A stretch of 40,889 bases of DNA. Source: a virus. A program made the position numbers and the translations under genes. Under the pieces are notes generated by a model that was not told the origin of the DNA, did no database searches, and worked only from the letters and a program-made list of their open reading frames with translations. Of this stretch, positions 1 to 19,226 are shown in pieces. The stretch's first letter is position 1. Every line of letters starts with the position of its first letter. The DNA lies in the IMG/VR virus record IMGVR_UViG_3300010430_000166, positions 1 through 40,889 of that record; one strand, given 5' to 3'.

Positions 1-93
1 ATGTATCCAAGATATTTGATGAAAACACACTGAGGACCTTTTGCATACTTAGATTTACAACTTTGACTGACACCTGAAGCGCTTAAGGGAGTT

Positions 94-927
94 ATGAAGA
101 TCAAGAAACTCGTAGTACGCTACTTGGCGTGGTGTGCTGATCATCACAGACCAAACACGGTCAAATACTATCGCTGTCGTTTGAAAAATTTCGTTATGAA
201 GTTCGGTAAACGCAAATTTGAGTCTTTATCGCTGATTGAGATCGAGGAGCATCTAGCTCGCGTCGGTCAAGGTCAGTCCAGCAACACGAGGCGGGGGAAT
301 GTCGTGGCATTCCTACGCCTGCAGTCGTGGGCGTTGGAGCATGAATTCATCGCGGTTGCCGTCGCGCCTAAGCTGAAGAAACCGAAGGCGCGGAGGCGAG
401 AAAAGATTCCCTCACGCAAAGAGACCGCTATCATTCTGCTGCGTGGAAGCAGACCGTTCCGTTTGATCTATCAAGCACTCCGCTACAGCGGCGCCCGTCC
501 CGGTGAACTCTGTGGAGCGAAGATCTCTGATATTAAGGAAGGCGGAACGGTCATCGAACTGTGGGATCACAAGACTGCCGGAAAGACCGGACGTCCGCGG
601 CGGATCCTCATCGGTCGCAAGCTCGGGAAGATCCTGGCGTGGTCGATCGGTGACCGGACGGAAGGTCCGATTTTTCTGTCTCCGCGCGGGAGGTCGTGGA
701 CCGTTGGCAATCTATCGGCAACGTATCGAAACCTTCGCAACGGTTTGGACCTGCCGAAACATCTCGTGGTTTACCTAGCTCGGCATGAATTCGGAACACG
801 CGCGACTGAAAAGTGTGGCATTCATCCCACGATGACCATGATGGGTCACACGCAGATCACGACAACTCAGCAATACGTCCACCCGGACGAAAACATTCTG
901 CGAGAACAACAGGACAAGGTTTTTTGA
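94..927 (+). CDS. Tyrosine recombinase (phage integrase family)
   Basis: 277-residue tyrosine site-specific recombinase. The N-terminal ~95 residues look like a core-binding (SAM-like) domain (TVKYYRCRLKNF). The catalytic domain shows Arg I at R135 (GARPGEL), basic residues near 164-170, the box II arginine R230, H252 in MMGHT and the nucleophile Y261 in QQYVHP. The box II histidine of HxxR is replaced by Tyr227 (YLARHEF). ATG start follows a GGGAG-type ribosome binding site. It lies upstream of the primase and well away from the second integrase at 31944, so it may serve dimer resolution, DNA inversion or a second integration system rather than being the main integrase. Family assignment is firm; role is inferred. 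Confidence 0.9.
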   Translation: MKIKKLVVRYLAWCADHHRPNTVKYYRCRLKNFVMKFGKRKFESLSLIEIEEHLARVGQGQSSNTRRGNVVAFLRLQSWALEHEFIAVAVAPKLKKPKARRREKIPSRKETAIILLRGSRPFRLIYQALRYSGARPGELCGAKISDIKEGGTVIELWDHKTAGKTGRPRRILIGRKLGKILAWSIGDRTEGPIFLSPRGRSWTVGNLSATYRNLRNGLDLPKHLVVYLARHEFGTRATEKCGIHPTMTMMGHTQITTTQQYVHPDENILREQQDKVF

Positions 928-1023
928 GGTTTGATGATTTGAAGTAGATCTAAACGCAATTTCAAAGAGGCGGTCAGCACATCGGATCGTCGGCCAATTC
1001 AGAGAGTGGGTTTCAGCGGTGTG

Positions 1024-1088
1024 CGGTTGAGATGGCGGGTTTCGTCATCTCAACCGGTGGCGATAGGTCGTGGGAGTCTTGCTCCCGC
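1024..1088. promoter_or_regulatory. Two inverted repeats in the gap before the primase
   Basis: The non-coding stretch 928-1217 contains a perfect 11-bp inverted repeat (CGGTTGAGATG at 1024-1034, complement at 1046-1056, 11-nt loop). A second one, GTGGGAG at 1070-1076, pairs with CTCCCGC at 1082-1088 around TCTTG. Neither is followed by a T run, so they look more like operators or a structured 5' leader of the primase mRNA than a terminator. Nothing else was recognised in this gap. Confidence 0.45.
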
Positions 1089-1217
1089 CTTCGCTGGGTA
1101 ATATCAACCCAGCCAATAGGCATGCGACCCGTCGTGAGGAAGGTAACTGCGTACGCGAGCGACGTTAAACAACTCGCGGGGGGAGTTTTTGCTGACCAGT
1201 CTTAGCGGTGGAGAAGG

Positions 1218-2018
1218 ATGGCAATCGACATGAGACAGGCTGCCCAGTGGTATGCGGACAATGGGTTTCGCATCTTTCCACTGGATGGAAAGTTTCCACA
1301 CAGAAAATTCCTCCAACCCTTGGATGGCAAGCAAAGCTGGAAGCCTCTGGTTCAACAGCGACCGTCACCAATTGAGCTTGATCTGTGGTTTGGAAAGCAT
1401 CGAGCAAACATCGGGCTGGCCACTGGGATCAGCGGTGTGGTGGTCGTCGATTGTGACGACGTGGAAGAAACAAATTGGTGGGTCGAGAACAGACCGTCCA
1501 CAGACATGATTTGCCTTACTAAGAACGGAGCACATCACTACTACCGCTCGATCGAGGGCGTGAGAAATCAACAGGATGTGTTGATCAACGGTCAAAAACA
1601 CAACATCGACGTCCGGGGCTTTGGCGGTTACGTCGTTGCACCTCCGTCGATTCATCCGGACGGCGGCCGATACGAACGGGTGGGGGATTGGGATCTGTCC
1701 ATCGTCCCGGAATTCAATCCAGAGTGGTTTGATCCGAAGGTTTCAACTGGGGCACCGGTCCGCGAACGAAACAATCCGGAACGGGCCGAAGATGTGGCAT
1801 CTCGGTACATCAATCACATCCAAGCGATCAGCGGACAGCAAGGCCACAACGAAACGTTCCGTGCGGCTTGCAAGCTGATCGAATTTGGATTGAACGCAGG
1901 GCACGCCTACGAGGTGATGCAGGAGTGGAACAAAACGAACGCTCATCCACCGTGGTCTGACTCCGAGCTGCGTCACAAAGTGGATGATGCTTTTCAGTCT
2001 GTGAAAGGAAGCCGATGA
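1218..2018 (+). CDS. Prim-pol domain primase/polymerase (N-terminal domain type)
   Basis: 266-residue protein of the bifunctional primase-polymerase family, which makes primers for and extends phage or plasmid DNA. The AEP-type signature is visible: an N-terminal QWYADNGFRIFPL, the metal-binding DCD at residues 78-80 in SGVVVVDCDD, HHYYR near 106-110, and the conserved IDVRGFGGYVVAPPSIHP at 130-147 with H146. The C-terminal ~90 residues form a helical extension with no helicase domain, so unwinding may come from the separate SF2 helicase at 38142. GGAGAAGG lies just before the ATG. The last 4 bases overlap the RusA start (ATGA), implying coupled translation. Confidence 0.88.
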   Translation: MAIDMRQAAQWYADNGFRIFPLDGKFPHRKFLQPLDGKQSWKPLVQQRPSPIELDLWFGKHRANIGLATGISGVVVVDCDDVEETNWWVENRPSTDMICLTKNGAHHYYRSIEGVRNQQDVLINGQKHNIDVRGFGGYVVAPPSIHPDGGRYERVGDWDLSIVPEFNPEWFDPKVSTGAPVRERNNPERAEDVASRYINHIQAISGQQGHNETFRAACKLIEFGLNAGHAYEVMQEWNKTNAHPPWSDSELRHKVDDAFQSVKGSR

Positions 2019-2425
2019 CAACGCTGATAGTAACGCTGCCTCCACCCCCTACAGTCCTTAATCCCAATCGTACTTCGCATTGGAGGACCAAGGCGAAGGC
2101 TGTAAAGCAATATCGAAATGATGCACATATCGCCGCTTATACAGCATTGAACGAAATGGATCGATGGCATTCCAACCGACCGCGATGGAAACAAGCGGTG
2201 ATGACGCCGAAGTTCTATTTCCGCGATCGACGGAGGCGGGACCGCGACAATTTTCAGGCTGCCCTCAAGGCCGCGTGCGATGGGCTAGTTGATGCCGGCG
2301 TTTTGATTGACGACAGCGGCTTGGCCACCATGCCGGCAGAGTTTGACATTGATGGAAACGACCCGCGCGTAGAACTGCATTTACGCGAGCTTCAGGAAGG
2401 GATGCCTTATGCCTCAAACGATTAG
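2015..2425 (+). CDS. rusA: RusA-like Holliday junction resolvase
   Basis: 136-residue endodeoxyribonuclease of the RusA family, which cuts four-way junctions during phage recombination. Visible family features are the N-terminal PPPPTVLNPNRTSHW segment, the RRRDRDNF block and the acidic DGLVDAGVLIDDS block that carries the metal-binding aspartates. Length is close to the usual ~120 residues. It starts inside the primase stop (ATGA overlap) and is overlapped at its end by the small gene at 2409. A resolvase beside a primase, with ERF/SSB/helicase at the other end of the window, fits a split or circularly continuous recombination module. Confidence 0.88.
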   Translation: MTTLIVTLPPPPTVLNPNRTSHWRTKAKAVKQYRNDAHIAAYTALNEMDRWHSNRPRWKQAVMTPKFYFRDRRRRDRDNFQAALKAACDGLVDAGVLIDDSGLATMPAEFDIDGNDPRVELHLRELQEGMPYASND

Positions 2426-2591
2426 AACCGTCACACTCAAGACGGGTGAATCTGTGAAGATCGGAGAATGTGAAATCTCCGTTTCGAGCCGAGTTGAATT
2501 GAAGATCACCGTTCCAAGCGGAATAAAAATCCGGCGCGTGAAACGGTCTGTTGAAAAACAACCGTTGCGTGATCTTTCCGGCATAACTTGA
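2409..2591 (+). CDS. Small protein resembling a shortened CsrA
   Basis: 60-residue protein. Residues 9-42 follow the CsrA pattern: LKTGESVKIG corresponds to the LTRKVGESIVIG strand, then I-x-V, then VELKITVPSGIKIRR corresponds to the VRLGI-AP-x-x-x-V-HR strand, with R42 in the place of the RNA-binding arginine. The turn between strands 2 and 3 is shorter than in normal CsrA, so this is a candidate homologue only. AGGAAGG precedes the ATG, and the start overlaps the RusA end by 17 bases. It is the last gene before the putative late promoter and terminator. A clearer CsrA is encoded at 36031. If not CsrA-like, its function is unknown. Confidence 0.5.
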   Translation: MPQTIRTVTLKTGESVKIGECEISVSSRVELKITVPSGIKIRRVKRSVEKQPLRDLSGIT

Positions 2592-2600
2592 TCATTGCGG

Positions 2601-2630
2601 TTGACTGGATAGATATCACGTGCGTAAAAT
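2601..2630 (+). promoter_or_regulatory. Putative late promoter (sigma70-like)
   Basis: TTGACT at 2601-2606 and TAAAAT at 2625-2630 with an 18-bp spacer; each hexamer matches consensus at five of six positions. Transcription would begin near 2637, after the last early gene, and run into the leader, the terminator and the lysis/structural genes. Confidence 0.6.
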
Positions 2631-2636
2631 TTCGCC

Positions 2637-2766
2637 CAGCGGCAAGGCCGTGAGTCAGTGATTAGCGAAGACCGCTTTCGAGCGTAGCTATAGACCGGTT
2701 TCGAGCCAAAAAGCTCAGGCTGATCGGGAGGCGAGGCCCCCAACTCAGCGCTGAGCTTTTTTCTTT
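2637..2766 (+). ncRNA. Candidate 6S-like late leader RNA
   Basis: About 130 nt of untranslated, structured sequence between the putative late promoter and a strong intrinsic terminator. It holds a CGCT-TTCG-AGCG tetraloop hairpin (2673-2684) and the related phrases GACCGCTTTCGAGC and GACCGGTTTCGAGC. No open frame with a ribosome binding site is present. Position and architecture resemble the lambda 6S leader made from pR' and stopped at tR', just before lysis genes. This is an inference from layout. Confidence 0.45.
2708..2766 (+). terminator. Strong intrinsic terminator before the lysis genes
   Basis: An outer stem, AAAAAGCTCAG (2708-2718) with CTGAGCTTTTT (2751-2761), continues as GCTGA (2719-2723) with TCAGC (2745-2749) across one bulged G. 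The apical stem GGGAGGC/GCCCCC (2726-2732/2736-2741) has a bulged A and a GAG loop. A T-rich tract TTTTTTCTTTCTTT follows. The 3' side contains the 12-bp palindrome CTCAGCGCTGAG. It would stop most transcripts before the lysis and late genes unless antiterminated. Confidence 0.75.
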
Positions 2767-2820
2767 CTTTGGCCGATTCGGGACCGCTGACAATGCTTCA
2801 TCAGATGGAGAGGATCGTCA

Positions 2821-3072
2821 ATGTCTGATGGCACTCTCGAAAAGATCGATGTCCGCCTAGCGCGAATCGAATCGAAAATCGACAACGCTATCAAAAAAGG
2901 TGAACGGCATTCACGCGTCCTCTTCGGCGAGACGGGAGCCGATGGATTGAGCGGCCGAGTCCAGACTTTAGAGCAATCCGAATCACGGCGGACCTGGCAC
3001 ATTCGAGCTATCTGGACCGCCGTTCTTGGAGCAGTGGTTTCAGCACTGTCGGGTGTGTTTAGTCCGAAATGA
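2821..3072 (+). CDS. XhlA-like membrane protein (lysis-associated)
   Basis: 83-residue protein with a predicted coiled coil in the first ~55 residues (LEKIDVRLARIESKIDNAI, then VQTLEQSES) and one C-terminal membrane segment at about 62-79 (AIWTAVLGAVVSALSGVF). This arrangement matches XhlA-type haemolysin/holin-accessory proteins of phages. GGAGAGGA precedes the ATG. It overlaps the next gene by 4 bases (ATGA), and both belong to the lysis group just after the strong terminator. The exact role in lysis is inferred. Confidence 0.6.
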   Translation: MSDGTLEKIDVRLARIESKIDNAIKKGERHSRVLFGETGADGLSGRVQTLEQSESRRTWHIRAIWTAVLGAVVSALSGVFSPK

Positions 3073-3383
3073 GTGACTTCCTGATTCTGGCGGTGGTGAT
3101 CGCTCCGGTTTATACGGCTTATGTTTTCAAAGGTGACGGCATGAAAAAATTACTGAGCGACAAAGGGAGCAACTCGAAGCCGTTTCGTTGGGACGGTAAC
3201 GATGGTCGTCAAATCCTACTCTTAGCACTCGCTGCAGGTGGCGGTGCATTTTTGACAAGCTTTCTTGGAAGTATTGATTCCCTTGTTGACAAGGAAGCCT
3301 TCGGTGAATGGTCGGCAATCGTTGGGGCTGCCTCGGTTGTCGTGGTCGATGCCTTGAGGAAGCTTCTGGCGGATAACACATGA
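3069..3383 (+). CDS. Holin-like membrane protein
   Basis: 104-residue protein with two or three membrane segments: residues 2-19 (FLILAVVIAPVYTAYVF), about 48-66 (ILLLALAAGGGAFLTSFL) and about 82-97 (AIVGAASVVVVDALR). Charged residues lie between them. Size, topology and position after an XhlA-like gene point to a holin. No family signature was recognised, so the call depends on context. It starts inside the preceding stop codon, and its own stop overlaps the start of a 22-residue micropeptide. Confidence 0.5.
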   Translation: MSDFLILAVVIAPVYTAYVFKGDGMKKLLSDKGSNSKPFRWDGNDGRQILLLALAAGGGAFLTSFLGSIDSLVDKEAFGEWSAIVGAASVVVVDALRKLLADNT

Positions 3384-3448
3384 AAAATATCCTGTTGCTA
3401 CTCGAAGCGTTGCTGGAAGTCGCTTATTTAATTCTCGGAGGAGACTGA
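3380..3448 (+). CDS. 22-residue membrane micropeptide, translationally coupled
   Basis: Reading from ATG 3380 gives a 22-residue peptide beginning MKNILLLLEALLEVAYLILG and ending GD; nearly all of it is one hydrophobic helix. The start overlaps the holin stop (ATGA), and the stop overlaps the next start (TGATG). Its 3' end (CTCGGAGGAGACTG) supplies the ribosome binding site of the next gene. It could be a lysis micropeptide or a coupling leader peptide. Short length means no homology claim is possible. Confidence 0.45.
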   Translation: MKNILLLLEALLEVAYLILGGD

Positions 3449-4266
3449 TGCGATTCGCGGTTGCGATTGCAGTTTTGCTACTGATGCCGTCTGGGCTGCC
3501 GGCTGAGAATCCGCTGCCTCCTCGTGAGCCAACTCCAGTCATCACCGGTCCGACTAGCGTCTACACCGGTGCGATGATTCGATTGTCTGCCGAGAAGTCC
3601 GACGCCGACCATTACTCATGGCTGGTTGATACGAGTGACGTCGAACTCCCGCCGGGTGGAGACCCGACGAAAATCAACGAAGCAATCAACGCGGTTGAGG
3701 CCAGAGGATTCAAAGTCATCCGCTCCGAAGCCGGTGAAGAGAATCCCACGTTCTCAATCCAGAACGGCGGTCGCGATTTGTTTTTGAGTAGCTATCCGGG
3801 GACTTACCGAGTGTTTCTCGCGGTCTCGATCGATGGTGTTGGCGTTGCTCAAACTTCATGGACTGTCAAAGTCAAAGAATGCCGTGGTCCTCCCGATGAG
3901 CCGGACCCACCGAAGCCACCTGAACCGCCGGATGAACCCGACCCGCCTACAACCGGTTTCGGTCTCGCAGCGAAAGTTCCTGTTTGGTTGACGAGCGTCC
4001 CGCAGGAGCACAGGTCGAATTCAGCCGCCATCAAGGAATCGCTTTCAGCGGTTGGAAAGATTGCCGGGACCGACATCCTGCCAACGGTCAGCGGCGTGAA
4101 GACTGCCCTCCTGGCATCACTGACTCTCTCAATCAAAGACAAATCTGCCTGGGCGAAATTCGGGCAGAGTCTTGCGACTGAACTCGAAAAACTCCAATCC
4201 GCAGGGACCATCACCACGGCCAAACAGTTTGGTGAAGCTATCCTAGAAGTAGCGGGGGCAATGTGA
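3448..4266 (+). CDS. Secreted PKD-like protein with proline-rich linker
   Basis: 272 residues. Residues 1-19 are a Sec signal peptide (MRFAVAIAVLLLMPSGLPA). Residues ~28-145 look like an Ig/PKD-type beta-sandwich (ITGPTSVYTGAMIRLSA, then YPGTYRVFLAVSIDG). A linker of PPDEPDPPKPPEPPDEPDPP repeats (about 149-168) follows. The C-terminal ~105 residues form an uncharacterised helical domain. A signal peptide is unusual for a virion protein. The start overlaps the micropeptide stop and is preceded by GGAGGAG. It opens a run of genes for secreted proteins inside the late operon. Function unknown; surface binding is a guess. Confidence 0.6.
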   Translation: MRFAVAIAVLLLMPSGLPAENPLPPREPTPVITGPTSVYTGAMIRLSAEKSDADHYSWLVDTSDVELPPGGDPTKINEAINAVEARGFKVIRSEAGEENPTFSIQNGGRDLFLSSYPGTYRVFLAVSIDGVGVAQTSWTVKVKECRGPPDEPDPPKPPEPPDEPDPPTTGFGLAAKVPVWLTSVPQEHRSNSAAIKESLSAVGKIAGTDILPTVSGVKTALLASLTLSIKDKSAWAKFGQSLATELEKLQSAGTITTAKQFGEAILEVAGAM

Positions 4267-5183
4267 TGCCGACCGACCAACAAATCATCAGGATACTCGA
4301 CGCGACGGGGCATCTCGCCCACCCGTTCGGCGAACAGCGTACGCTCACAAAACCGCTGCACGAACTCACGCTCAACGATCAATGTGTGATTGATGCCGTT
4401 CAGTCCTATCAGGACTTCCATTCTGTTTCGATTGAGCCGATTGTCGCCAAGCATTACCCGATGCGAGTTTCGGCGGCAGTTAAAGCTGACGGCCAAGTCG
4501 GCCCGGCGATGCGGGAACTGTTCGACCAGCCGCGATGCCAATGCCCGGACTACAACCCAGCGACCGACCAACAGGCCGCCCAGGGCTCCGGCAATTGGCG
4601 GGGCTGCCACAACATCGGCAACTATCACGCGGCAGTCGCGAAGTTCCTCAACGAGCCGCCTAGCTATCTCAAGCCGCATTTTGACGAGGTGTGGAAACGT
4701 GTCGTCGATACCTACGCGGAAATCGGACTGCTCTGGAAGCGAGATGACAGTCATTCCAACCCAGATACGAACATTTCATTCGTGCGACCGGATGGTGGAT
4801 GGATTGGATTGGCTATCGTATCCAACAGGGCGAGTTGCGGATCGAACATCTGGGCGAAATTCGACAATCGGTATCAACCGGCCAATTTGGTTCGAGAATG
4901 GACCACGCTGTTTAACCACGAGCTTGGGCACAACTGCGGTCTATCTCATTCACGTGGCGGCATCATGAACAGCTACCTCGTCAAGGGTCTGGCTCCGACC
5001 TGGAAGAACGACCCGTCGTACAACTTGGTCGTTTCCCGATTCGGTGGTCAACCTGTCCCGCGCGACGACGACCCCGGTGAACGCAAGATGGTTCTGGCTT
5101 GGGAATATCCGGGCGGGCGATTCGAGAAAATCAATGACGTCCCGACGGTGGACGAAGAACAATCATTCTGGCCGGAGGTCTGA
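4266..5183 (+). CDS. Matrixin-like zinc metalloprotease with cysteine switch
   Basis: 305-residue metzincin. The N-terminal ~95 residues resemble the peptidoglycan-binding-type propeptide of matrix metalloproteinases (LNDQCVIDAVQSYQDFH, then ADGQVGP) and end in PRCQCPD at 89-95, matching the PRCGxPD cysteine switch. The catalytic zinc motif HELGHNCGLSH is at 218-228, followed by a Met-turn methionine at M234 (GGIMN). ATG 4266 overlaps the upstream stop (TGATG); an in-frame GTG three bases earlier is less likely. No signal peptide is evident, so release may be by lysis or packaging in the virion. In matrixins the switch cysteine ligates zinc to keep the enzyme latent. Target unknown. Confidence 0.85.
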   Translation: MPTDQQIIRILDATGHLAHPFGEQRTLTKPLHELTLNDQCVIDAVQSYQDFHSVSIEPIVAKHYPMRVSAAVKADGQVGPAMRELFDQPRCQCPDYNPATDQQAAQGSGNWRGCHNIGNYHAAVAKFLNEPPSYLKPHFDEVWKRVVDTYAEIGLLWKRDDSHSNPDTNISFVRPDGGWIGLAIVSNRASCGSNIWAKFDNRYQPANLVREWTTLFNHELGHNCGLSHSRGGIMNSYLVKGLAPTWKNDPSYNLVVSRFGGQPVPRDDDPGERKMVLAWEYPGGRFEKINDVPTVDEEQSFWPEV

Positions 5184-5186
5184 CAC

Positions 5187-5564
5187 ATGGAGCGTACTGG
5201 CGAAGACATCATCCGAGAAAAACTTATTGAAGTTGAGGAAGAACTAAACGGTAGCAGTGCGTCAATAAACCTCGCGGGGATACTGACTCTCATCGGCCCC
5301 ATCTTTGAGTTGATTCGTGGATGCAGTAGCGAGGCGAGAGCATCTCGTCACGTACGACGTGGATCCGCGATTGCACGAAGAAAAGTCGAGAACATGCTCA
5401 AGGCTGAGGGGTATGAAGGCGACGCCAAGCAAGCTGCGAAGGAAATTATTAAACGCGGCAAGAAACTTAGCGAAAACGAATTGGCCGCCATTTTGGATGA
5501 AGCCAAAGACGACCCTGCACCTCCTCCGGCACCTCCCGGCGGTTGGTGGCCCGTGTGGGACTGA
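5187..5564 (+). CDS. Hypothetical protein, proline-rich tail
   Basis: 125 residues, not recognised. The N-terminus is acidic and helical (EKLIEVEEELNG), followed by a moderately hydrophobic stretch (NLAGILTLIGPIFELI) that could be amphipathic or membrane-peripheral. A basic central region and a C-terminal PAPPPAPPGGWWPVWD tail complete it. GGAGG sits 9 bases before the ATG. It lies three bases after the matrixin gene and three before the thioredoxin-like gene, so it is co-translated with the secreted-protein cassette. Confidence 0.6.
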   Translation: MERTGEDIIREKLIEVEEELNGSSASINLAGILTLIGPIFELIRGCSSEARASRHVRRGSAIARRKVENMLKAEGYEGDAKQAAKEIIKRGKKLSENELAAILDEAKDDPAPPPAPPGGWWPVWD

Positions 5565-5567
5565 GAC

Positions 5568-6287
5568 ATGAAACGAAGAACACTTTTGACGCTTGCGGCC
5601 TTGCAGATTCCGTCTATTGCGATGGGGGATTGGTGGCCGACTGCCGAACCTGGGAAAAAGTGCGTTCCCCCTGTTTTGCCTTGGCCTGAAGATCCGCCGC
5701 CTGACTATGAAAGTCAGTCTCGCGACCCATTTGCAGGTACGAGGATTCCGATCATTTACTGGGCGCAATTCGGCTGCGCTCCGTGTAAATCTGGCTTGGA
5801 CGAATTGGGAGCAAAAAGGAACTATGTCAAACCTTTTGCTTCTGGACGGTTCATGATTTATCCGAGGTACGACGCTCCGAATTGGGTAAAAGAATTTCCC
5901 ACGCTGTATTTTCGTTCCCGCAGGGAAAGCGGGTGGTCTCAACTGACTGGATGGCCTGGAAAAGAGCGATTTGAAGAGATTTATGATGGCGAACAGCAAT
6001 CGCAACAGCAGGCAGTAGCTTCTCGTCCTCCCCTTGTCAGAACTCGCAGCAGTCGTGCTCACTGGACGAATCCAGGAAGGATTGACGACCACCTCATCAA
6101 CGACCACGGAGTGAGTCCGTCTCGAATCCGTGGCATGTCTTGGGACCAGATGAAAACATTGCACGACCGCATTCATGAGGCCAACGTATCAGCAAGGTCA
6201 AAGTCTAAACGGAAAACGAAACAGAAAGCACGACAGCGTACAACGCGGCGGTCTTATTCATATTGTCCTTCTGGAAGATGTCCATGA
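5568..6287 (+). CDS. Secreted thioredoxin-like protein
   Basis: 239 residues with an N-terminal signal peptide (MKRRTLLTLAALQIPSIAMG). The thioredoxin-type fold is indicated by the strand IPIIYWAQFGC leading to CAPC (C70, C73) and by the cis-proline loop EFPTLYF with P111. A C-terminal segment (HLINDHGVSPSRIRGMSWDQ) resembles a small helical domain, and the extreme C-terminus is very basic (SARSKSKRKTKQKARQRTTR). It could reduce or form disulfides in exported partners such as the cysteine-switch protease or the Cys-rich tail protein; this is inference from neighbours. It shares an ATGA overlap with the next gene. Confidence 0.7.
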   Translation: MKRRTLLTLAALQIPSIAMGDWWPTAEPGKKCVPPVLPWPEDPPPDYESQSRDPFAGTRIPIIYWAQFGCAPCKSGLDELGAKRNYVKPFASGRFMIYPRYDAPNWVKEFPTLYFRSRRESGWSQLTGWPGKERFEEIYDGEQQSQQQAVASRPPLVRTRSSRAHWTNPGRIDDHLINDHGVSPSRIRGMSWDQMKTLHDRIHEANVSARSKSKRKTKQKARQRTTRRSYSYCPSGRCP

Positions 6288-6502
6288 GCATTCCAGCGAT
6301 TCGCGAAGAGTTAGCAATTCTGCGTGGTCGTCAAGCGGAAGACGAAAAGAACATTCGTGGATTGCGCGTACAGATGCAGATCCACGGAAAAACAAAAGAC
6401 GGTGGTCTCGGCGAACGGATGCTCGATTGGTGCGACCGTCGGCATGCAGACAGCAAAGAACTGGGCCAACTACTCAAGGAGTTTGAGGAATGCGATTGGT
6501 AG
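6284..6502 (+). CDS. Small hypothetical protein, helical
   Basis: 72 residues, largely charged and helical (IREELAILRGRQAEDEKNIRG), probably a coiled coil. ATG 6284 is chosen because it overlaps the upstream stop as ATGA; a TTG start further upstream would overlap that gene more. The next gene begins inside its last four codons. No family recognised. Sitting just before the large G8 protein, it may be a partner or simply coupled for expression. Confidence 0.55.
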   Translation: MSIPAIREELAILRGRQAEDEKNIRGLRVQMQIHGKTKDGGLGERMLDWCDRRHADSKELGQLLKEFEECDW

Positions 6503-8883
6503 CATTGTTTTTGGCGTTGGTGGCATCGGTGGCAACCGCCAGCGAACCGCCAGAGGAAATTAAGACTCACCACGACACGATCCCGGTCATCGGCCACGAG
6601 TACGAAGACCGTGCGGTCGGTGGCATGTGGAAATCGGCGGATACCTGGGCCGATGGCACGACTCCGCTTGCGACCGAAGACGTTTACATTCCCGTAGGCG
6701 TGACTGTTCGCATCTGCGAGAAGTGCGGTCCTGTTCGTGTCGAGAACATCGTCGTTGACGGCACGTTGGACATCGTAGGTGCAGACCTCACGGTGGGAAC
6801 TCTGACGGTCCTTCCAATGGGGACTCTGCAAGCGGGGACCGTCACACAACCGGCATCGGCCAAAGTCACATTCTCCGCACAACCGATTGAACTTGAAAAT
6901 GACCCGTACCAATGGGGCAGAGGGATGTTGGTTTTCGGAACCATCAAATTGTACGGAAAACCGAAAACTCCATTTGTGCAGCTAGATGAAAGCGTGATGG
7001 CTGGTGACACATCCGCCGAGGTGCTGGAACAGCCTGTCGGATGGGAGCCTGGAGATAATTTAGTATTCACCGACACGCGGCAAATCTGGCGGGCCGATGA
7101 AGTCAAGGAAAAGGTGTGGGAGCCGCATTGCGATGAAGTGACCTACAAATCGTCAGTGGGAGCGACCGTAGATTTCACGGCGTTGAAGTATGACCATCTG
7201 GAGTTTCCAAACCCGCACGACGACCGTCCTCTGACTGGCCACATTTTGAACTTATCTCGCTCGATCGAGTTTCACAATGAGGACCAGAATCATCGAGCGC
7301 ATACTGCATGTATCGGGATGGCCAAATCTGACATTCGCTACTGCCGGTATTTCGGTCTGGGACGAACTGACGCCAGTCGAACTCTCAGCAACACGATGGT
7401 GATGCCTGATGGAACTTTACACATCGGCACAAATCAGATTGCTCGGTATGCAGATCACTTCCATCACAACATGGTGACCGGAAACAAGAGGATTGGTTGC
7501 GTCTCTACCGATACTCTGAAATGGGGATTCACCATCCACGGCACCAACGGTGTCCAGTTTCTTGACAATATTGCTTACAACTGCATGGGCAGCGGATTGC
7601 AAATCGAAGACGGCGATGAGGAGAACTGCCGAATAATTGGCAACTTCTTTTGCAAAATCAGCAGCGGCGGAAAGCCTATCGTTAAATATATCAACGCTGC
7701 GGGCGAGAAGGTCATCGACATTGGTAGGGATGGAAGCGGATTATGGAGCCGGGGGTGCGACAACATCTACATTGGAAATTTCTCTAATTCTTGTGCATTC
7801 GCGGGGTTCATGAACAACGGGTACTACAACCCTGACTGCGAAAATCACAACGGCTATCAAGAGTGGCGAGATAACACCGCCTACGGTTACACACCGAGGG
7901 GTTTTTGGCGGGCATGGCCGCAGGCGGAAAGCGTTGACGTGGACGGCCAGTATATGGGGAACTACAAAGAATCCCCCAGCGTTCAGCACAACAATCTCGC
8001 ATGGGCGATGACTTGGAACGGCTGCGAGTCGTGGCATGACGCGGCATATGAGCAGCACAATTGCGTCTACATCAATGACCCTAAAGTAACAGCCAAGCGT
8101 GAACGAAACTTGGTTGTTGGGTGCGTAGGGATTTCGTTTCGGTCGCACTATACGGCATACGGAGCAGTCGTCAAGAATTGCTCTGCATACGGTTTTCACA
8201 CTGGCGTTGAATTGACAACTGCTCCTGGCCCCATCGACTTCTGGGGACCGACGCTTATCGACGGTGGGACATGGAAGAACAGCGTGAACTTCTTGTACTT
8301 GGATCACCCTGGACCTCAAACGCCGGTTCGGTCGCTAATCAAAAACGTTACGCTCGGCCATTACCCTGAATTCAGTCCCACGGAATACATCGACCGACCG
8401 GCACACGTTGCGATGCTAGCGGTTCGCAATCCCAAAGGCGGGGTGGTATCCGAGTACGATGCTGCCATTGAAATCCGCGATTACAACGGGGCAGACTTGT
8501 TGGTGAACTACGCCGAAGAGTCCCCCGATTATGTGCTGACTTTGGAGCAAGATAAGCGACTGCCGATTGAATTAGTCGGTCTGACAAACCAGCAGGCGAG
8601 AAACCAGTTCGGGCAGTCATATCACAACCGGATCACTGACCACGCGGAAACAGTGGACGGGATTATCGGGTTAGTGAAAGTGCTTGACGGTACAGTTCCC
8701 GACCCGGAACCCGAACCCGATCCTGAACCAGAACCGGACCCGATCGCGGTCACAATTGAGATTCTGTTTGCGGACCACGAAATCATGGCGGCGACTGCGA
8801 GCAGCCTAAGCATCACAATCCCTGAACTAATCAGGCAGTGGATTGACGATGATCTTGAAGCACTTAAAGAGAAAGAGAATTGA
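6490..8883 (+). CDS. Secreted G8-domain / right-handed beta-helix protein
   Basis: 797 residues. Residues 1-19 are a signal peptide (MRLVALFLALVASVATASE). Residues ~45-200 match the G8 domain and the segment that follows it in CEMIP-like proteins: WKSADTWADGTTP, VYIPVGVTVRI, VVDGTLDIVG, then GMLVFGTIKLYGKPKTPF and GWEPGDNLVFTDT. The middle (~250-600) has the short Asn- and Gly-rich strands of a pectate-lyase-type beta-helix (NIAYNCMGSGLQIEDG, IYIGNFSNSC). A DPEPEPDPEPEPDP linker near 735-750 precedes a short C-terminal region. Such proteins bind or cleave polysaccharides. The signal peptide argues for export from the infected or lysogenic cell rather than assembly as an ordinary tailspike. 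Confidence 0.8.
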   Translation: MRLVALFLALVASVATASEPPEEIKTHHDTIPVIGHEYEDRAVGGMWKSADTWADGTTPLATEDVYIPVGVTVRICEKCGPVRVENIVVDGTLDIVGADLTVGTLTVLPMGTLQAGTVTQPASAKVTFSAQPIELENDPYQWGRGMLVFGTIKLYGKPKTPFVQLDESVMAGDTSAEVLEQPVGWEPGDNLVFTDTRQIWRADEVKEKVWEPHCDEVTYKSSVGATVDFTALKYDHLEFPNPHDDRPLTGHILNLSRSIEFHNEDQNHRAHTACIGMAKSDIRYCRYFGLGRTDASRTLSNTMVMPDGTLHIGTNQIARYADHFHHNMVTGNKRIGCVSTDTLKWGFTIHGTNGVQFLDNIAYNCMGSGLQIEDGDEENCRIIGNFFCKISSGGKPIVKYINAAGEKVIDIGRDGSGLWSRGCDNIYIGNFSNSCAFAGFMNNGYYNPDCENHNGYQEWRDNTAYGYTPRGFWRAWPQAESVDVDGQYMGNYKESPSVQHNNLAWAMTWNGCESWHDAAYEQHNCVYINDPKVTAKRERNLVVGCVGISFRSHYTAYGAVVKNCSAYGFHTGVELTTAPGPIDFWGPTLIDGGTWKNSVNFLYLDHPGPQTPVRSLIKNVTLGHYPEFSPTEYIDRPAHVAMLAVRNPKGGVVSEYDAAIEIRDYNGADLLVNYAEESPDYVLTLEQDKRLPIELVGLTNQQARNQFGQSYHNRITDHAETVDGIIGLVKVLDGTVPDPEPEPDPEPEPDPIAVTIEILFADHEIMAATASSLSITIPELIRQWIDDDLEALKEKEN

Positions 8884-8886
8884 ATA

Positions 8887-9342
8887 ATGGGATTTCCGGG
8901 AACGGTTTTATCTCCAGCAGATGCCTATCGACAGGCGACTGCTACTGCGGGGAGACTCAAAAAAGAGTCGATCATCAAGCGTGCGGTAATGATCGCAGGG
9001 GACATCAGTTTTGACGTCGTCATGAGACTCCGTGACGATCTCATTAACGCTGATGCACTGTTTGCGACTGCTGCTGCAGTGCCTGGGATCGTTGAATACG
9101 CTCGCGCCCAAAACAATGATCCAGATTACGACATAATCGCGGATTTTGTGGCAATGCGGAATGCAGTTTCTGCTGCACTCACTGCCGTCGAAGCTGCACT
9201 GCCCCAATCAGGAGGTTTTCTCTTGAGGGAATCGATTGTCTCCGGTGTCAGCGGCACAACGGTTCGCTCATTCACTTCTCAGCAGGCAGAAACTGCTGGA
9301 ATCCCGGATAAGCTTGCCGACGTGATTGCCTCAATTGATTGA
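8887..9342 (+). CDS. Hypothetical protein of the tail-fibre gene cluster
   Basis: 151 residues, Ala-rich and mainly helical (FVAMRNAVSAALTAVEAALP), with no motif recognised. It sits between the secreted G8 protein and the first beta-rich fibre-associated protein, in a continuous operon with gaps of only a few bases. A minor virion or fibre-assembly protein is plausible from position alone. Confidence 0.6.
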   Translation: MGFPGTVLSPADAYRQATATAGRLKKESIIKRAVMIAGDISFDVVMRLRDDLINADALFATAAAVPGIVEYARAQNNDPDYDIIADFVAMRNAVSAALTAVEAALPQSGGFLLRESIVSGVSGTTVRSFTSQQAETAGIPDKLADVIASID

Positions 9343-9348
9343 TAGAAC

Positions 9349-10023
9349 ATGACCGCTCCCGTTGTCGCCTCAACGGCGATCTACAACGACACGGCCAATG
9401 CCGCGTCAATCGCAATAAGCAAACCCTCGGGAACGGTTGAGGGTGATTGGCTGATACTGCACGTCTGTAATCGGTCAACTGAAACTGTTTCTTGCACAGG
9501 ATTCACGGAGGTTTATTCAGCAACTGTTGGAGTTATCAGGGAAACGGTCCTCAAGAAAAAAGCGGGATCGTCGGAACCGTCCAGTTATACGGTCGAGGCA
9601 GCATCTGGCACTCCCCGATGGGCAGCGGCGATCGCCAGGATCACAGGCGGGGATTCGACAGACATCATTGACGTTGTGGGGACGGCGGCAACGGGAACCG
9701 ACGACGCCCCAATCTCACCGAGCATCACAACGACGGTTGCGGATGCTCTGGTGATGCGTTTCCTGACGTTTGACACTTCTAGTGGAACTTACACGCTCCC
9801 ATCGGGACTGGATGAAGAATGGAACGCGGATCCCGACGCGGGCGGACGTCCCGAAGTTGTGGCGGCATCACTAGAACAAGCGAGTGCAGGATCGTCGGGA
9901 ACGGCAACGTGGGCAAAAACCAACGAATTTGATTGGATCACAAACACGGTTTCGCTCGCACCGGCGGGCGGTGCTGAGGAACCGGAGGAGCAACCGGCGA
10001 TTTTCTTCGGGTGTGTGTTTTAA
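9349..10023 (+). CDS. Beta-sandwich tail/adhesion protein
   Basis: 224 residues, rich in Thr/Ser/Gly and alternating hydrophobic strands (GDWLILHVCNRS, then DALVMRFLTFDTSSGTYT, then WITNTVSLAPAGG), as in fibre-associated beta-sandwich domains that recur in phage tail loci. It ends in EEPEEQPAIFFGCVF. It lies just upstream of the tail fibre. No catalytic motif was seen; host-surface binding is inferred from location and composition. Confidence 0.55.
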   Translation: MTAPVVASTAIYNDTANAASIAISKPSGTVEGDWLILHVCNRSTETVSCTGFTEVYSATVGVIRETVLKKKAGSSEPSSYTVEAASGTPRWAAAIARITGGDSTDIIDVVGTAATGTDDAPISPSITTTVADALVMRFLTFDTSSGTYTLPSGLDEEWNADPDAGGRPEVVAASLEQASAGSSGTATWAKTNEFDWITNTVSLAPAGGAEEPEEQPAIFFGCVF

Positions 10024-10033
10024 GGATTGAGTG

Positions 10034-11914
10034 ATGGCTGATCAAAAAATCTCTGAGCTAAACTCACTCGCAGCTGCCAACTTGGCGGCTGACGATCAGT
10101 TTGTCCTTGTAGACACATCAGGGACGGAGACGAAGAAAATCTCCAAGAGCGAAGTCGATACTCTCTATGCAGACGCTTCGCACACGCATACCGAGTCGGA
10201 CATCACGGACCTGGGATCTTATATCGAAGATATTTCCGGTGAGTCTCTGGGAGATTTGTCAGACGTCACGATCACGGCTATTTCATCCGGAGAATTGCTT
10301 GTCTGGAACGGTTCGGCTTGGATTAACCAAACTTTGGCGGAAGCTGGGATTGCATCTGCGAGCCACAGTCATGCAGTCTCCGACATCACCAGTGGAACGT
10401 TGGCACACGAACGGGGTGGCTTAGAGGCGGACATCTCCGCCATCGTGGACGGTGATTTCATCGTTGGAACGGGATCCGGAACTCTGGGGCTGGAAAGCGG
10501 GGACACGGCGCGGACATCGCTAGGATTGGGGACGGGGAATTCTCCCACATTCACGCGGTTGACGGTTTCGCAATCGACGGGAACTGCTCCATTCACGGTT
10601 GCGTCAACGACGGTCGTTTCAAATCTCAACGCCGATCTGATTGACGGAATTGAAGGGGCGGAACTGATCCAACGCGACGGCTCGGTTGCCTTCACAGGCA
10701 ATCAGGCGATGGGGTCGAACCGATTGACCGGTTTGGCCGAACCGACTGCATCAACAGATGCCGCAACTAAGGCTTACGTCGATGCGGCCATTGACGGGTT
10801 GGATTACAAAGATTCTGTCCGAGTGGCCACGACTACTGCGGGGACTCTGGCCTCTGATTTCGAGAACGGCGATTCAGTCGATGGTGTGACGCTGGCGACT
10901 GGTGATCGGATCTTGGTCAAGAATCAGACCACGGCCAGCGAGAACGGCATCTATACCGTCAACGTCAGTGGTGCACCGAGTCGCGCGGCAGATTTGGCGT
11001 CTGCGTCATCAGCTGCAGGTGCGTTCGCATTTGTCGAAGAGGGAACAACCAACGGCGACAAAGGTTTCGTCTGTACGGCAAACGATGGTAGCGACGTCGT
11101 TGGAACGGACGATCTTGCATGGGCACAATTCAGCGGATCGGGCGGCGGCGGTGAAACCAACACGGCGTCAAACGTCGGCACCGGCCAAGGTGTCTTCAAG
11201 CAGAAAACGGGCGTTGATTTCGAGTTCTATGAGATTAAAGCCGGATCTTCGAAGATTACTGTCAGTCTCGTTTCTGACGACATCACGATCGATCTGGGAA
11301 CGGTCGTTCTGGATGACTTGTCCGATACGGATATCGGATCTGCGAGCACTGGTGATTTTCTCGAATTCGACGGCTCTGTTTGGACCAACGTTGCGAAAAG
11401 TGCAGTCGATCACGGTGCATTCGGCGGTCTCTCCGATGACGATCACACTCAATATGCTTTGCTTGCCGGCCGTTCAGGCGGTCAAGACATCATTGGCGGA
11501 ACGGCATCCGGAAATGACTTGACGTTTGAATCCACGTCCGACGCAACCAAAGGCCACATTCAGAGCAAAGACAATCACCAATTCGACAAGACGGCCTATT
11601 TCGATGCCGAAGTCGACAACGGCAACAGCGGTACGGCAGACACGATCGATTTCGGGGTCGGCAATAAGCAAAAGAGCACGCTGACGGACAATGTGACGTT
11701 CACTTTCACTGCTCCTCCAGGACCGTGCAATCTGATTCTCAAGCTTGTTCAGGATGCCACGGGAAGCCGCACGGTGACATGGCCGGCAACGGTGAAATGG
11801 CCATCCAACGGAACGGCGCCCACACTGAGCACGGGAGCCAATGACGTGGATATTGTGTCGTTCTATTTCGACGGGACCAACTATTACGGACAAGCGGGAT
11901 TGGATTTTGCATGA
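10034..11914 (+). CDS. Tail fibre protein
   Basis: 626 residues with typical fibre sequences: ADQKISELNSLAAANLAADD at the N-terminus, HTHTESDITDLGSY and HSHAVSDITSGTL repeats, a NLNADLIDGIEGAEL motif near residue 200, and TKAYVDAAIDGLDYKDSVR near 250, a phrase common in fibre trunks. The C-terminal part ends with a beta-rich domain (NVTFTFTAPPGPCNLILKLV) like those capping fibre tips. ATG 10034 is preferred over the adjacent upstream GTG at 10031. It lies upstream of terminase, the reverse of most lambda-like maps, but consistent with a late operon starting at lysis. Confidence 0.85.
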   Translation: MADQKISELNSLAAANLAADDQFVLVDTSGTETKKISKSEVDTLYADASHTHTESDITDLGSYIEDISGESLGDLSDVTITAISSGELLVWNGSAWINQTLAEAGIASASHSHAVSDITSGTLAHERGGLEADISAIVDGDFIVGTGSGTLGLESGDTARTSLGLGTGNSPTFTRLTVSQSTGTAPFTVASTTVVSNLNADLIDGIEGAELIQRDGSVAFTGNQAMGSNRLTGLAEPTASTDAATKAYVDAAIDGLDYKDSVRVATTTAGTLASDFENGDSVDGVTLATGDRILVKNQTTASENGIYTVNVSGAPSRAADLASASSAAGAFAFVEEGTTNGDKGFVCTANDGSDVVGTDDLAWAQFSGSGGGGETNTASNVGTGQGVFKQKTGVDFEFYEIKAGSSKITVSLVSDDITIDLGTVVLDDLSDTDIGSASTGDFLEFDGSVWTNVAKSAVDHGAFGGLSDDDHTQYALLAGRSGGQDIIGGTASGNDLTFESTSDATKGHIQSKDNHQFDKTAYFDAEVDNGNSGTADTIDFGVGNKQKSTLTDNVTFTFTAPPGPCNLILKLVQDATGSRTVTWPATVKWPSNGTAPTLSTGANDVDIVSFYFDGTNYYGQAGLDFA

Positions 11915-12132
11915 CCGATTTCCTGCTGCAAGAAAACGGGGATTATCTGCTCCAGGAGAATGGTGATCGCATCATTTTGGAAGCGGCGCCAGTGATCGAA
12001 ATCCCTGATGGCATTTCCTACATCGATGTGCGGGGAGCTCGCACAACGCCACACATTGTCCGTGGTGCACGTTCATTGGAACACGACATTCGCGGAACAC
12101 GACAAACCGAACACGTCTTGCGAGGCAAGTGA
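11911..12132 (+). CDS. Small fibre-associated protein with internal repeats
   Basis: 73 residues. The N-terminus carries a tandem repeat LLQENGDYLLQENGDRIILE, a phrase found in many short phage tail-region proteins. The C-terminal half repeats RGARTTPHIVRGARSLEH and RGTRQTEHVLRGK, giving a regular RGxR-x5-H pattern three times. The start overlaps the fibre stop (ATGA), and the stop overlaps the next start (TGATG). Probably a small structural or chaperone protein for the fibre; the function is not established. Confidence 0.65.
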   Translation: MTDFLLQENGDYLLQENGDRIILEAAPVIEIPDGISYIDVRGARTTPHIVRGARSLEHDIRGTRQTEHVLRGK

Positions 12133-12494
12133 TGGTCGATCAACACCTGGTGAACGAAAAAGAGCATGTGCATGTCATTCACAAAGGGGACACGCGCGTG
12201 CCGTTGGCGGTAACGCTCAAGCGTGAAAAGAGCAACTCAGTTGTCGACCTGACGGACCTGGTCGTCGAGTTCTACATGATCGACTCGAATGGCACAGTGA
12301 AGGTTGCTCGATCGGATACGGGTGTTGCTGTTGATGCAGACCCCACCACGGGCAAGGTCACCAAGACCTTCTTGGATGCGGACGTGGATACGGCCGGGGA
12401 TTTCTTCGCCTACTTCGTTGTGACCGAGAGCGGTGAGGATGAGACGTTCCCGGTTGATACGAAGCGGTTGGTGGTGCAGGTGCAGGGGGACTGA
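12132..12494 (+). CDS. BppU-type baseplate/fibre N-terminal domain protein
   Basis: 120 residues with the pattern of the BppU/DUF2479-like Ig domain of baseplate proteins: KGDTRVPLAVTLKR, VVDLTDLVVEFYMID, then DADVDTAGDFFAYFVV, with a final strand KRLVVQVQGD. ATG 12132 overlaps the previous stop; an in-frame GTG three bases upstream is the alternative. It closes the fibre group, 100 bases before terminase. Assignment is by sequence pattern only. Confidence 0.6.
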   Translation: MVDQHLVNEKEHVHVIHKGDTRVPLAVTLKREKSNSVVDLTDLVVEFYMIDSNGTVKVARSDTGVAVDADPTTGKVTKTFLDADVDTAGDFFAYFVVTESGEDETFPVDTKRLVVQVQGD

Positions 12495-12597
12495 CACTGC
12501 AAAAGGTACTATCCAGGAAGTCAAGGCAGGATAGGCAAGCGGGAAATGCCACTATTGTTGGTAGTGTGAATGAATGATCAGTGCGGTGGGGACAATC

Positions 12598-14676
12598 ATG
12601 ACGAGTGCCGACCGTGGGGCTGAGGCTCGGCGGCGGTGGAACCGTGAGCGGACCGCTGAAGCACAAGAGATTGGTGAGATTCCTTTGCCGCAGGATCCCG
12701 ACCGTCGGGCTGCGGCGATTGCCGATTATGGGTTCTTTTGCCGGACCTACTTTTCCGCTGCGTTCACACTGCCTTGGTCTCCGTTTCACGAGAAGGCGGC
12801 CGACAAAATCAACAAGGCCGTGAAGTCGGGCGGGGTGTTTGCTTTCGCGATGCCGCGCGGCAGCGGCAAGACGACGATGTGCGAGTGGGCCACGCTGTGG
12901 GCGATTCTCTCCGGTCAGAGCAAATACGTGTTGTTCGTCGGGGCCAGTGAGGCGACGGCTGACAAGCGTCTCAAGAGCTTGAAATCGGAACTGCGGTTCA
13001 ACGATTTGTTGCTGGCGGACTTTCCGGAAGTCTGTATTCCGGTGGCTCACCTGGATGGCGAAGCGCGGCGGGCTGCGGGTCAGAAGTTTCGCGGGGAGCC
13101 GACCAACATCGAGTGGACGCAAAAGCGGGTGGTCTTGGCCACGATCCAGATTGATCAATGCCTGGCGTCCGGATCTGTGATCGAGGTGATCGGGATCACG
13201 GGCGATATTCGCGGCCGCAACCACAAGCTGGCGAGCGGGGAGATTGTGCGACCGTCCCTGGCTGTCTGCGATGATCCGCAGACGCGGGAGTCGGCCATGT
13301 CGGTATCGCAGTCCGCCACGCGCGAAGCCACGCTGGCCGGGGATGTGGCTTATCTGGCCGGCCCGGGCAAAGCGATTTCGATTCTGATGCCTTGCACGGT
13401 GATCAACCCCGGCGATATGGCGGACAAGATGCTTGACCGGTCGCTGCATCCGGAGTGGCAGGGCGAACGGACGAAGATGGTGCTCAAGTTCCCCAAGGAG
13501 GAAAAGCTTTGGGACGAGTATCGCGAGCTGCGAGAACAGAGCTTTCGCGACGACGGCAATGGATCCGAGGCGACCGAGTTTTACCGCAAACATCGAGAGC
13601 AGATGGATGCAGGTGCGGAGGTCAGTTGGCCCGAACGCTTCAACGACGGTGAATTGTCGTCGCTGCAGCACGCGATGAACCTGCGGTTTCGCGACGAAGC
13701 GGCATTCTTCGCCGAATATCAGAACGAACCGTTGGCCACGTTGGACGAAGAGGATGAGGATCTGCTGACGGCTGATCAGATTGCGGTGAAGACGAATGGG
13801 ATCAACCATCGGCTTGTGCCGCACGATTGCAGCCATCTGACAGCATTCATCGACGTGCAGCAAAAGCTGCTCTATTTCGTCGTGATTGCCTGGACCGAGA
13901 ACTTTACCGGGCACGTGATCGATTACGGCTGTTGGCCGGATCAGAAGCGGCGGCAGTTTACGCTGCGGGATGCCAAGATTTCGTTGGCGATGAAGTTTCC
14001 CAAGGCCGGGTTTGAGGGGTCGATCTACGGTGGGCTGGAAAAGCTGACCGATGAACTGCTGGGGGGTGAGTGGCGTCGGGATGATGGGGCCGTGGTGAAT
14101 GTCGATCGCTGCATGATCGACGCCAACTGGGGCCGTTCGACCGACGTGGTCTACCAGTTTTGCCGGCAGAGTGCTCACAGCGCGGTCCTGACTCCTTCCC
14201 ATGGGAAATTTGTGGGAGCGGCCTCGATTCCCTTCTCGGACTACAAGCGGAAGCCGGGGGAGCGGGTGGGGCACAACTGGCGGATTCCCAACGTGCGCGG
14301 CAAACGGGCCGTGCGGCACGTGGTCTATGACACGAACTACTGGAAAAGCTTCATCCAAGCCCGGTTGTCCGTGTCGATGGGGGACCGGGGCTGTCTGTCG
14401 CTCTACGGTCGCAAGCCGCACAGACTGTTTGCGAGTCATTTGGTTGCCGAATATCGCGTTCGCACCGAGGGGCGGGGTCGGACGGTGGATGAGTGGAAGC
14501 ATCGCCCCGAGCGACCGGACAACCACTGGTTGGATTGTGTCGTGGGCTGCGCGGTGGGGGCTTCGATGCAGGGGGTGACTCTGCAGGAAACCGAGGTGAC
14601 GGCTCCGCAGCCGAAGAAATCACGGACGCGGATGTCGATGGCCGAGCGGCGAGCTAGGAAGCGAGGTGTGGTGTGA
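12598..14676 (+). CDS. Terminase large subunit (GpA-like)
   Basis: 692-residue DNA packaging motor. Walker A PRGSGKTT is at residues 86-93, with a Walker B-like strand LAVCDD near 221-226. The C-terminal nuclease half includes AFIDVQQKLLYF, MIDANWGRS and HWLDCVVG with candidate metal-binding aspartates. Composition and size fit the GpA/lambda-type family. ATG 12598 follows a G-rich stretch (GGTGGGGA); ATG 12574 is the longer alternative with a poor ribosome binding site. No small subunit was recognised upstream; the short zinc-ribbon gene downstream is not an obvious replacement. Confidence 0.9.
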   Translation: MTSADRGAEARRRWNRERTAEAQEIGEIPLPQDPDRRAAAIADYGFFCRTYFSAAFTLPWSPFHEKAADKINKAVKSGGVFAFAMPRGSGKTTMCEWATLWAILSGQSKYVLFVGASEATADKRLKSLKSELRFNDLLLADFPEVCIPVAHLDGEARRAAGQKFRGEPTNIEWTQKRVVLATIQIDQCLASGSVIEVIGITGDIRGRNHKLASGEIVRPSLAVCDDPQTRESAMSVSQSATREATLAGDVAYLAGPGKAISILMPCTVINPGDMADKMLDRSLHPEWQGERTKMVLKFPKEEKLWDEYRELREQSFRDDGNGSEATEFYRKHREQMDAGAEVSWPERFNDGELSSLQHAMNLRFRDEAAFFAEYQNEPLATLDEEDEDLLTADQIAVKTNGINHRLVPHDCSHLTAFIDVQQKLLYFVVIAWTENFTGHVIDYGCWPDQKRRQFTLRDAKISLAMKFPKAGFEGSIYGGLEKLTDELLGGEWRRDDGAVVNVDRCMIDANWGRSTDVVYQFCRQSAHSAVLTPSHGKFVGAASIPFSDYKRKPGERVGHNWRIPNVRGKRAVRHVVYDTNYWKSFIQARLSVSMGDRGCLSLYGRKPHRLFASHLVAEYRVRTEGRGRTVDEWKHRPERPDNHWLDCVVGCAVGASMQGVTLQETEVTAPQPKKSRTRMSMAERRARKRGVV

Positions 14677-14678
14677 TC

Positions 14679-14858
14679 ATGGCTGATGAAAAACCACAAG
14701 AAGACCTGAGCTTGCTCTGCCCGAAATGCGGATGTCCTCAGTCGCATGTGCGCGATACGCGCAATGGCAGACTCAAAGGTCGCATCGTGCGATATCGGGT
14801 CTGCGACAACTGCGAAAACACGTTTCGGACGGTCGAAACGGTCGCTCAAGAGGGGTGA
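14679..14858 (+). CDS. NrdR/Ogr-like zinc-ribbon protein
   Basis: 59 residues with CPKCGC and CDNCENTF as two zinc-binding knuckles, separated by a basic stretch (RDTRNGRLKGRIVRYRV). The layout matches the N-terminal zinc ribbon of NrdR and is also reminiscent of Ogr/Delta late activators, but the second knuckle is C-x2-C as in NrdR. The ATP-cone of NrdR is absent. ATG 14679 is chosen over the GTG at 14673. The stop codon lies at the edge of an 18-bp palindrome, so autoregulation or a DNA-binding role is conceivable. Confidence 0.65.
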   Translation: MADEKPQEDLSLLCPKCGCPQSHVRDTRNGRLKGRIVRYRVCDNCENTFRTVETVAQEG

Positions 14859-14955
14859 CGTCTACCGGTAGACGTTGATTTGGAAATCCGCTCGCAAAAT
14901 CGCTTGAGTCATCTTGTTGCCCCGTTGTTCGTGCGTAAATTTAAGCACACGAACA
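14858..14955. promoter_or_regulatory. 18-bp palindrome and 8-bp inverted repeat
   Basis: ACGTCTACC (14858-14866) and GGTAGACGT (14867-14875) form a perfect 18-bp palindrome overlapping the stop codon of the zinc-ribbon gene. Further on, TGTTCGTG (14926-14933) is inverted as CACGAACA (14948-14955) around the A+T-rich GTAAATTTAAGC. Neither is followed by a T tract. They sit in the only sizeable gap between terminase and portal and look like protein-binding sites. Confidence 0.5.
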
Positions 14956-14968
14956 CGCGAGGTGAGTG

Positions 14969-15163
14969 ATGACCGACATTTCCGACAGCATTCAAGAGAA
15001 CGCGACCGCACCGAAAAAGATGTCGGTGGACGGTGCGTCGGCTGAGCAGCATCCGCTCAAAGATCAGATCGAAGCGGACCAATATCTCAAGGCCGAACAG
15101 GCTGCCTCCACCGCGCGACGGGGCCTGAGCTTCTCGCGATTCCGCCATCAAGGGACCGTCTGA
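14969..15163 (+). CDS. Small protein between terminase and portal
   Basis: 64 residues. The C-terminal half (IEADQYLKAEQAA, then GLSFSRFRHQGTV) resembles the short proteins often found directly before lambda-type portals, in the place of gpW-type head completion proteins. AGGTGAG precedes ATG 14969; an in-frame GTG at 14966 is possible. The stop overlaps the portal start (TGATG). Function inferred from synteny. Confidence 0.6.
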   Translation: MTDISDSIQENATAPKKMSVDGASAEQHPLKDQIEADQYLKAEQAASTARRGLSFSRFRHQGTV

Positions 15164-19168: not shown

Positions 19169-19226
19169 ACCACAACCAACGCGGCCACGGCTGACGTTGA
19201 ATCACACAATCACGGGAGTTTGAGAC

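Follow-up and report, generated by a model that had tools for sequence, protein, structure and literature searches.

A putative lambda-type late-gene switch upstream of the lysis genes of a probable planctomycete phage

The stretch of DNA analyzed here, hereafter the window, is the 40,889-base IMG/VR virus record IMGVR_UViG_3300010430_000166. It opens with a tyrosine recombinase gene (94-927), followed by the replication gene for a primase-polymerase (1218-2018) and by a gene for a RusA-like Holliday junction resolvase (2015-2425, + strand; phrog_34, E 8.9e-24), the last recognizable replication or recombination gene before the putative switch. A 60-amino acid open reading frame (2409-2591, + strand) then occupies the place held by Q in lambda and P22, and a 229-nt gap separates it from the gene for an XhlA/holin-like protein (2821-3072, + strand; phrog_689, E 8.2e-6; Pfam XhlA, E 7.6e-4, below the cut-off). 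This is the first gene of a putative late operon of lysis, fibre-like, terminase, portal, capsid and tail genes extending from 2821 to 28362, in which all kept genes lie on the + strand: a small hydrophobic protein (3069-3383) and a peptidase-like gene (4263-5183) are followed by the fibre-like genes, the terminase large subunit (12574-14676) and then the portal, capsid and tail genes. Three leftward open reading frames lie 3' of 28362, followed by an integrase gene (31899-33053), beyond which are genes for ParB-like, CsrA, Erf-like, helicase and SSB proteins. The portal, capsid, tail and SSB names were read off the sequences without a family search. The order is terminase-head-tail, integrase, recombination and replication, switch, and lysis, which is that of lambda if its circle is cut open in the early region. 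The tyrosine recombinases at 94-927 and 31899-33053 are different from each other, and a tRNA-Met gene (33736-33810) lies downstream of the second. Further along, direct repeats of CAAGGCAWGGTTTATTGAAACAG at 34189-34222, 34959-34992 and 35046-35079, upstream of the genes starting at 34221 and 35168, are possible operators or phage promoters.

Relatives of the terminase were found in 515 stretches of viral contigs and 248 times in genomes, and nearly all of the 80 genome matches listed are from Planctomycetota. A planctomycete host, which the original prediction had considered probable, is therefore supported by terminase relatives that are almost confined to that phylum among the matches listed. 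Among the records, L004 comes nearest: it shows no difference from the window in the 12,126 bases that were compared, and it covers only 12548 onward. This 28,347-base contig starts at window position 12548 and ends 5 bases past the right end of the window (the end of L177); physical or assembly ends may be marked by the ends of the contig. Its start falls inside the window copy, at 12504-12559, of an approximately 105-nt conserved DNA element (TAGGTACTTCC..GCGGGAACAGCCGCC..ACAGTTTGTTTTG..TGTCCGAAC) that lies upstream of the terminase gene in about 80 phage and prophage loci of planctomycetes (L039 3026-3138, L117 2861-2973, L063 9893-10005 and about 75 others). The element occurs once, rarely twice, per locus, often at the junction of early and late genes. 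In the window, just before the terminase, the copy is incomplete and weak; with an nhmmer E value of 3.4, it is supported mainly by its place. Across 73 sequences of the element there are 0 consensus base pairs, which gives an RNA fold of the element no support. Although a late control site was also considered, the element is most likely a cos-like packaging site. Its profile matches the window only at 12504-12559, which rules it out as a homolog of the leader described below.

The gap between the 60-amino acid open reading frame and the holin-like gene contains a promoter match, a leader and a hairpin. The original prediction had read a TTGACT-18-TAAAAT promoter here, and the scans agree: a sigma70-type match on the + strand spans 2601-2630, with TTGACT at 2601-2606, an 18-nt spacer and TAAAAT at 2625-2630, and a predicted transcription start near 2637. 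It agrees with 10 of 12 positions of the sigma70-like consensus that we assumed for Planctomycetes. Only two + strand sites in the 40,889 bases reach at least 10/12, at 2601 and 31178; the former is the best + strand site in the first 20 kb, and none of that grade was found by the sigma70-like scan inside 2821-28362. A site of this grade occurs in the 229-nt gap of 0.8-0.9% of Markov sequences (p about 0.009). Taken together, promoter-like sites are not overrepresented in positions 1-20000 (6 found, 9.2 expected), and the weight of the evidence therefore falls on the rank and the place of the 2601 site.

An intrinsic terminator on the + strand occupies 2708-2770, formed by a hairpin at 2708-2761 followed by a T tract (TTTTTTCTTTCTTT). 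The hairpin is 54 nt long, with 16 pairs, one bulged base and a 21-nt loop, inside which a small stem is formed. In a scan for closed hairpins that abut a T tract, it ranked first of the 44 found in the window (-30.9 kcal/mol), whereas ten Markov genomes of the same size, scanned on two strands, had minima of -15.3 to -25.4 kcal/mol. The nearly continuous hairpin of about 16 pairs with a T tract that had been predicted is thus present, and no other terminator-like site in the genome is as strong. The claim that it stands directly upstream of lysis and the late operon also holds, with the holin-like gene starting at 2821 and a one-directional block running to 28362. Promoter and terminator are both in the single gap between the replication genes and this block. 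Two other hairpins were recorded. At 35395-35446 on the - strand, inside the gene at 35168-35743, a near-perfect 16-pair inverted repeat with a T tract is the second strongest terminator-like hairpin, and a perfect 13-pair hairpin with A and T tracts at 29510-29543, between the leftward open reading frames 28768-29439 and 29551-30114, is likely a two-way terminator.

A rival explanation of the hairpin at 2708-2761 is plain punctuation: it would merely end the early, replication transcript, perhaps as a two-way terminator because it has an A tract on its 5' side, and the promoter match would be fortuitous, with late transcription starting elsewhere from a promoter of a type that the scans do not recognize. 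The absence of any general enrichment of promoter-like matches favors this explanation, as does a planctomycete contig in which a short hairpin and T run lie at the stop codon of a RusA gene whose product is 48% identical to that of the window (found in 1 of 392 planctomycete genomes; the contig ends 206 bases later), so terminators after RusA may occur without a late switch. It is further favored by the related phages, since a hairpin scan of their early/late junctions recovered no set of promoter, leader and terminator. However, a terminator that serves as punctuation has no need of a 10/12 promoter 130 nt upstream. Moreover, only about 55 nt lie between the T tract and the start codon of the first late gene. 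The two sigma70-like matches 3' of the hairpin are weak (7-8/12), and there is no usable sigma70-like promoter between terminator and gene because the better of them would place the start of transcription at about 2822, within the gene. We regard punctuation as the serious alternative to a promoter-proximal attenuator, although a somewhat unlikely one.

The non-coding leader (2637-2707, + strand) begins with a predicted hairpin at 2639-2651. As predicted, it is free of open frames, any + strand frame that starts within it having at most 13 codons. It had also been called structured; folded as a whole, the 139-nt region is only mildly unusual (z = -1.7), and the significant parts are therefore the hairpin and the promoter rather than the fold of the leader. 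The structured nature of the leader itself is without comparative support because no relative of it was found, an absence that weighs on neither side. No homolog was detected in 163 related loci, in the collections scanned or in 22 + 392 planctomycete genomes. As DNA, the leader gave short chance-level matches alone against named phages, viral contigs, the related loci and planctomycete genomes. A single-sequence covariance model recovered from 76 sources nothing except the leader, matched on its own strand and, at E 0.02, on the reverse, and from the 392 genomes one partial match (E 0.03) that we take as chance. None of the 163 related loci shares the lysis genes, and relatives of the primase-polymerase, peptidase, XhlA-like and 60-amino acid proteins were not found in viral contigs.

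Within the leader is a 14/15 direct repeat, AGACCG(C/G)TTTCGAGC, with copies at 2669-2683 and 2692-2706; no such repeat arose in 300 Markov leaders. The first copy can be folded, by prediction, as a CGCU-UUCG-AGCG hairpin, and we suggest that the repeat could serve any factor that binds RNA or DNA. The repeat also supplies the P2 and P3 strands of a possible antiterminator fold at 2659-2726 on the + strand (P1, 2659-2666/2719-2726; P2, 2669-2674/2696-2701; P3, 2703-2706/2713-2716). In this fold the 5' arm of the terminator is sequestered, with 12 of its 14 bases predicted to pair with the leader before the 3' arm emerges. Both features would suit control by RNA alone, in which a put-like or riboswitch-like leader forms the junction closed by 2659-2666/2719-2726 first and hides the 5' arm, and a ligand, the ribosomal state or the RNA itself chooses between read-through and stop. 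Equal pairing of the 5' arm is nevertheless reached by 59 of 1000 shuffled leaders and by 33 of 1000 segments drawn at random from the window, and so is only marginally unusual; with 6% of shuffles equaling it, the antiterminator fold is therefore a suggestion only. Control by a put-like leader also finds no support in Rfam, in that a scan of the window and leader returned the tRNA alone at the gathering threshold and nothing on the leader. We consider regulation by the RNA alone, whichever of these agents made the choice, decidedly unlikely.

Bases 2637-2652, predicted to be the first 16 nt of the leader, form a perfect complement of 15888-15903, a stretch within the portal gene; the longest such match among 300 Markov leaders is 15. 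This complementarity would fit a small RNA gene in its own right, complete with promoter and terminator, whose product acts in trans on targets such as phage mRNA. However, the portal target is in the middle of the gene, the stretch that matches is in part complementary to itself, and planctomycete genomes yield similar short matches, which we read as gene-internal. An independent gene of this kind is in our judgment very improbable. Lambda-type switches likewise release a short RNA, so the existence of a small RNA would be compatible with a promoter-proximal attenuator.

By its place, although not by homology, the 60-amino acid open reading frame at 2409-2591 is a candidate for the read-through regulator. 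Its match to the Pfam CsrA family (PF02599) has an E value of 0.051 and scores 14 bits against a cut-off of 27, and is thus below the cut-off; a match to the CsrA-like phrog_8397 is very weak (E 0.011). A single-sequence structural model, made with no alignment, has five strands and a pLDDT of 79. Comparison of the model with the PDB library gave the CsrA fold no support: no CsrA chain was among the 50 PDB matches listed, and none of the matches had an E value below 0.4. The protein is also unrelated by BLAST to the true CsrA of this phage, which is encoded at 36031-36216 on the + strand among recombination genes (PF02599, 72.7 bits). Phage-encoded CsrA proteins are known elsewhere. A leader acting as a CsrA sponge, like CsrB, was ruled out, the leader containing a single GGA. 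A further proposal that we considered is that the antiterminator is a small beta-rich, CsrA-like RNA-binding protein encoded in the place of Q, which would act on tandem AGACCGNTTTCGAGC leader hairpins and hold the 5' arm of the terminator in the antiterminator fold. We think that this one is most improbable.

The locus may be the switch by which a temperate phage of the lambda type turns on its late genes, in the form of a promoter-proximal attenuator, and we judge the chances of this to be about even. The proposal draws on the promoter match and the exceptional terminator, on the order in which they stand and the distance between them, on the genes around them, and on the recovery of known switches by the same scans. 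Against it, the terminase relatives have a different conserved element at the early/late junction, the leader had no homolog in the sets searched, neither a Q protein nor the pause element was found, and the consensus used for planctomycete promoters is an assumed, sigma70-like one. In our model, the promoter would be active and termination the default: the host RNA polymerase would start near 2637 and stop at about 2762-2767, releasing a short transcript of about 125-130 nt. Regulated read-through would follow late in infection, with a factor letting the polymerase past the hairpin into the lysis genes and then, across the circularized genome, into the terminase, head and tail genes as far as about 28362. 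Candidates for the read-through agent are the 60-amino acid protein, another early protein, or an alternative leader fold that hides the 5' arm of the terminator. In the literature searched, we found no description of the timing of late genes in phages of Planctomycetota. If the model is confirmed, the logic of lambda, in which one promoter, an early stop and a decision to read through serve a whole late operon, reaches a phylum far from the enterobacteria, and it does so with a different read-through agent. The candidate switch is compact: a promoter, a hairpin and, beside them, a single gene of 60 codons.

Two other kinds of regulatory RNA offer comparisons. The put RNA of HK022, to which the leader may be likened in layout, is a promoter-proximal structured RNA of similar size, with two stems, that makes polymerase resistant to terminators; an RNA of this kind could act on polymerase without a phage protein. 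In contrast to the window, where one strong terminator directly follows the leader, put serves early genes and terminators at a distance (PMC9378689). Riboswitches and protein-controlled attenuators resemble the locus in their mutually exclusive folds, here predicted, that share the 5' arm of the terminator, but the leader has no Rfam match and its competition of folds is not clearly beyond chance.

The known Q families are PF06530, PF03589 and PF06323 (PMC7171158). That the phage has no recognizable Q, as originally noted, was upheld for the Q21 and lambda-Q families (PF06530 and PF03589), which have no match in the window and for which the E. coli control was positive; the Q82 family (PF06323) likewise has no match, although its controls were also silent. 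The different antiterminator suggested by the original prediction is an inference from this absence. Q is loaded at a sigma-dependent pause (PMC7171158), which is marked by a -10-like element, NANNAT (PMC9378689). The same search that found the pause element AACGAT at +1 in both lambda and P22 found none in the window transcript from +1 to +54. The window thus has the predicted promoter and early terminator of a Q-dependent switch, and the Q features were not found, so the locus may work like the lambda switch but is no more than a possible member of the Q-dependent class.

The closest likeness is to lambda and P22 themselves. Run as a control on the annotated lambda Q-S gap (L179) and on P22 (L180), the same scans recovered TTGACT-17-TAAATT at 44552 (9/12) and a hairpin at 44721-44775 (-26.3) in lambda, and TTGACT-17-TAAATT at 37852 (the annotated pR', 9/12) and a hairpin at 37915-37942 (the annotated tR', -17.7) in P22. 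From the predicted start to the end of the hairpin there are 188 nt in lambda, 55 in P22 and 124 in the window. With its sizes within the known range and the controls recovered, the locus thus has the anatomy of a lambdoid late switch, and the layout of lambda pR'/6S/tR' that had been proposed for it is matched in both anatomy and genomic place. The -35 hexamer of both pR' promoters, TTGACT, is identical to that of the window, and the -10 hexamer is nearly so. In lambda, in P22 and here, a non-coding leader and a strong hairpin with a T tract precede the holin, and the switch is placed after the replication and recombination genes with one late block downstream. Beyond the Q protein and the pause element, the differences are an unrelated leader sequence and, in the window, a small beta-rich open reading frame in the place of Q. 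In P22, the Holliday-junction nuclease gene ninG/rap shortly precedes gene 23 (the Q function), pR', tR' and the holin; the window has, in the same succession, RusA, the 60-amino acid open reading frame, the promoter, the terminator and the holin-like gene.
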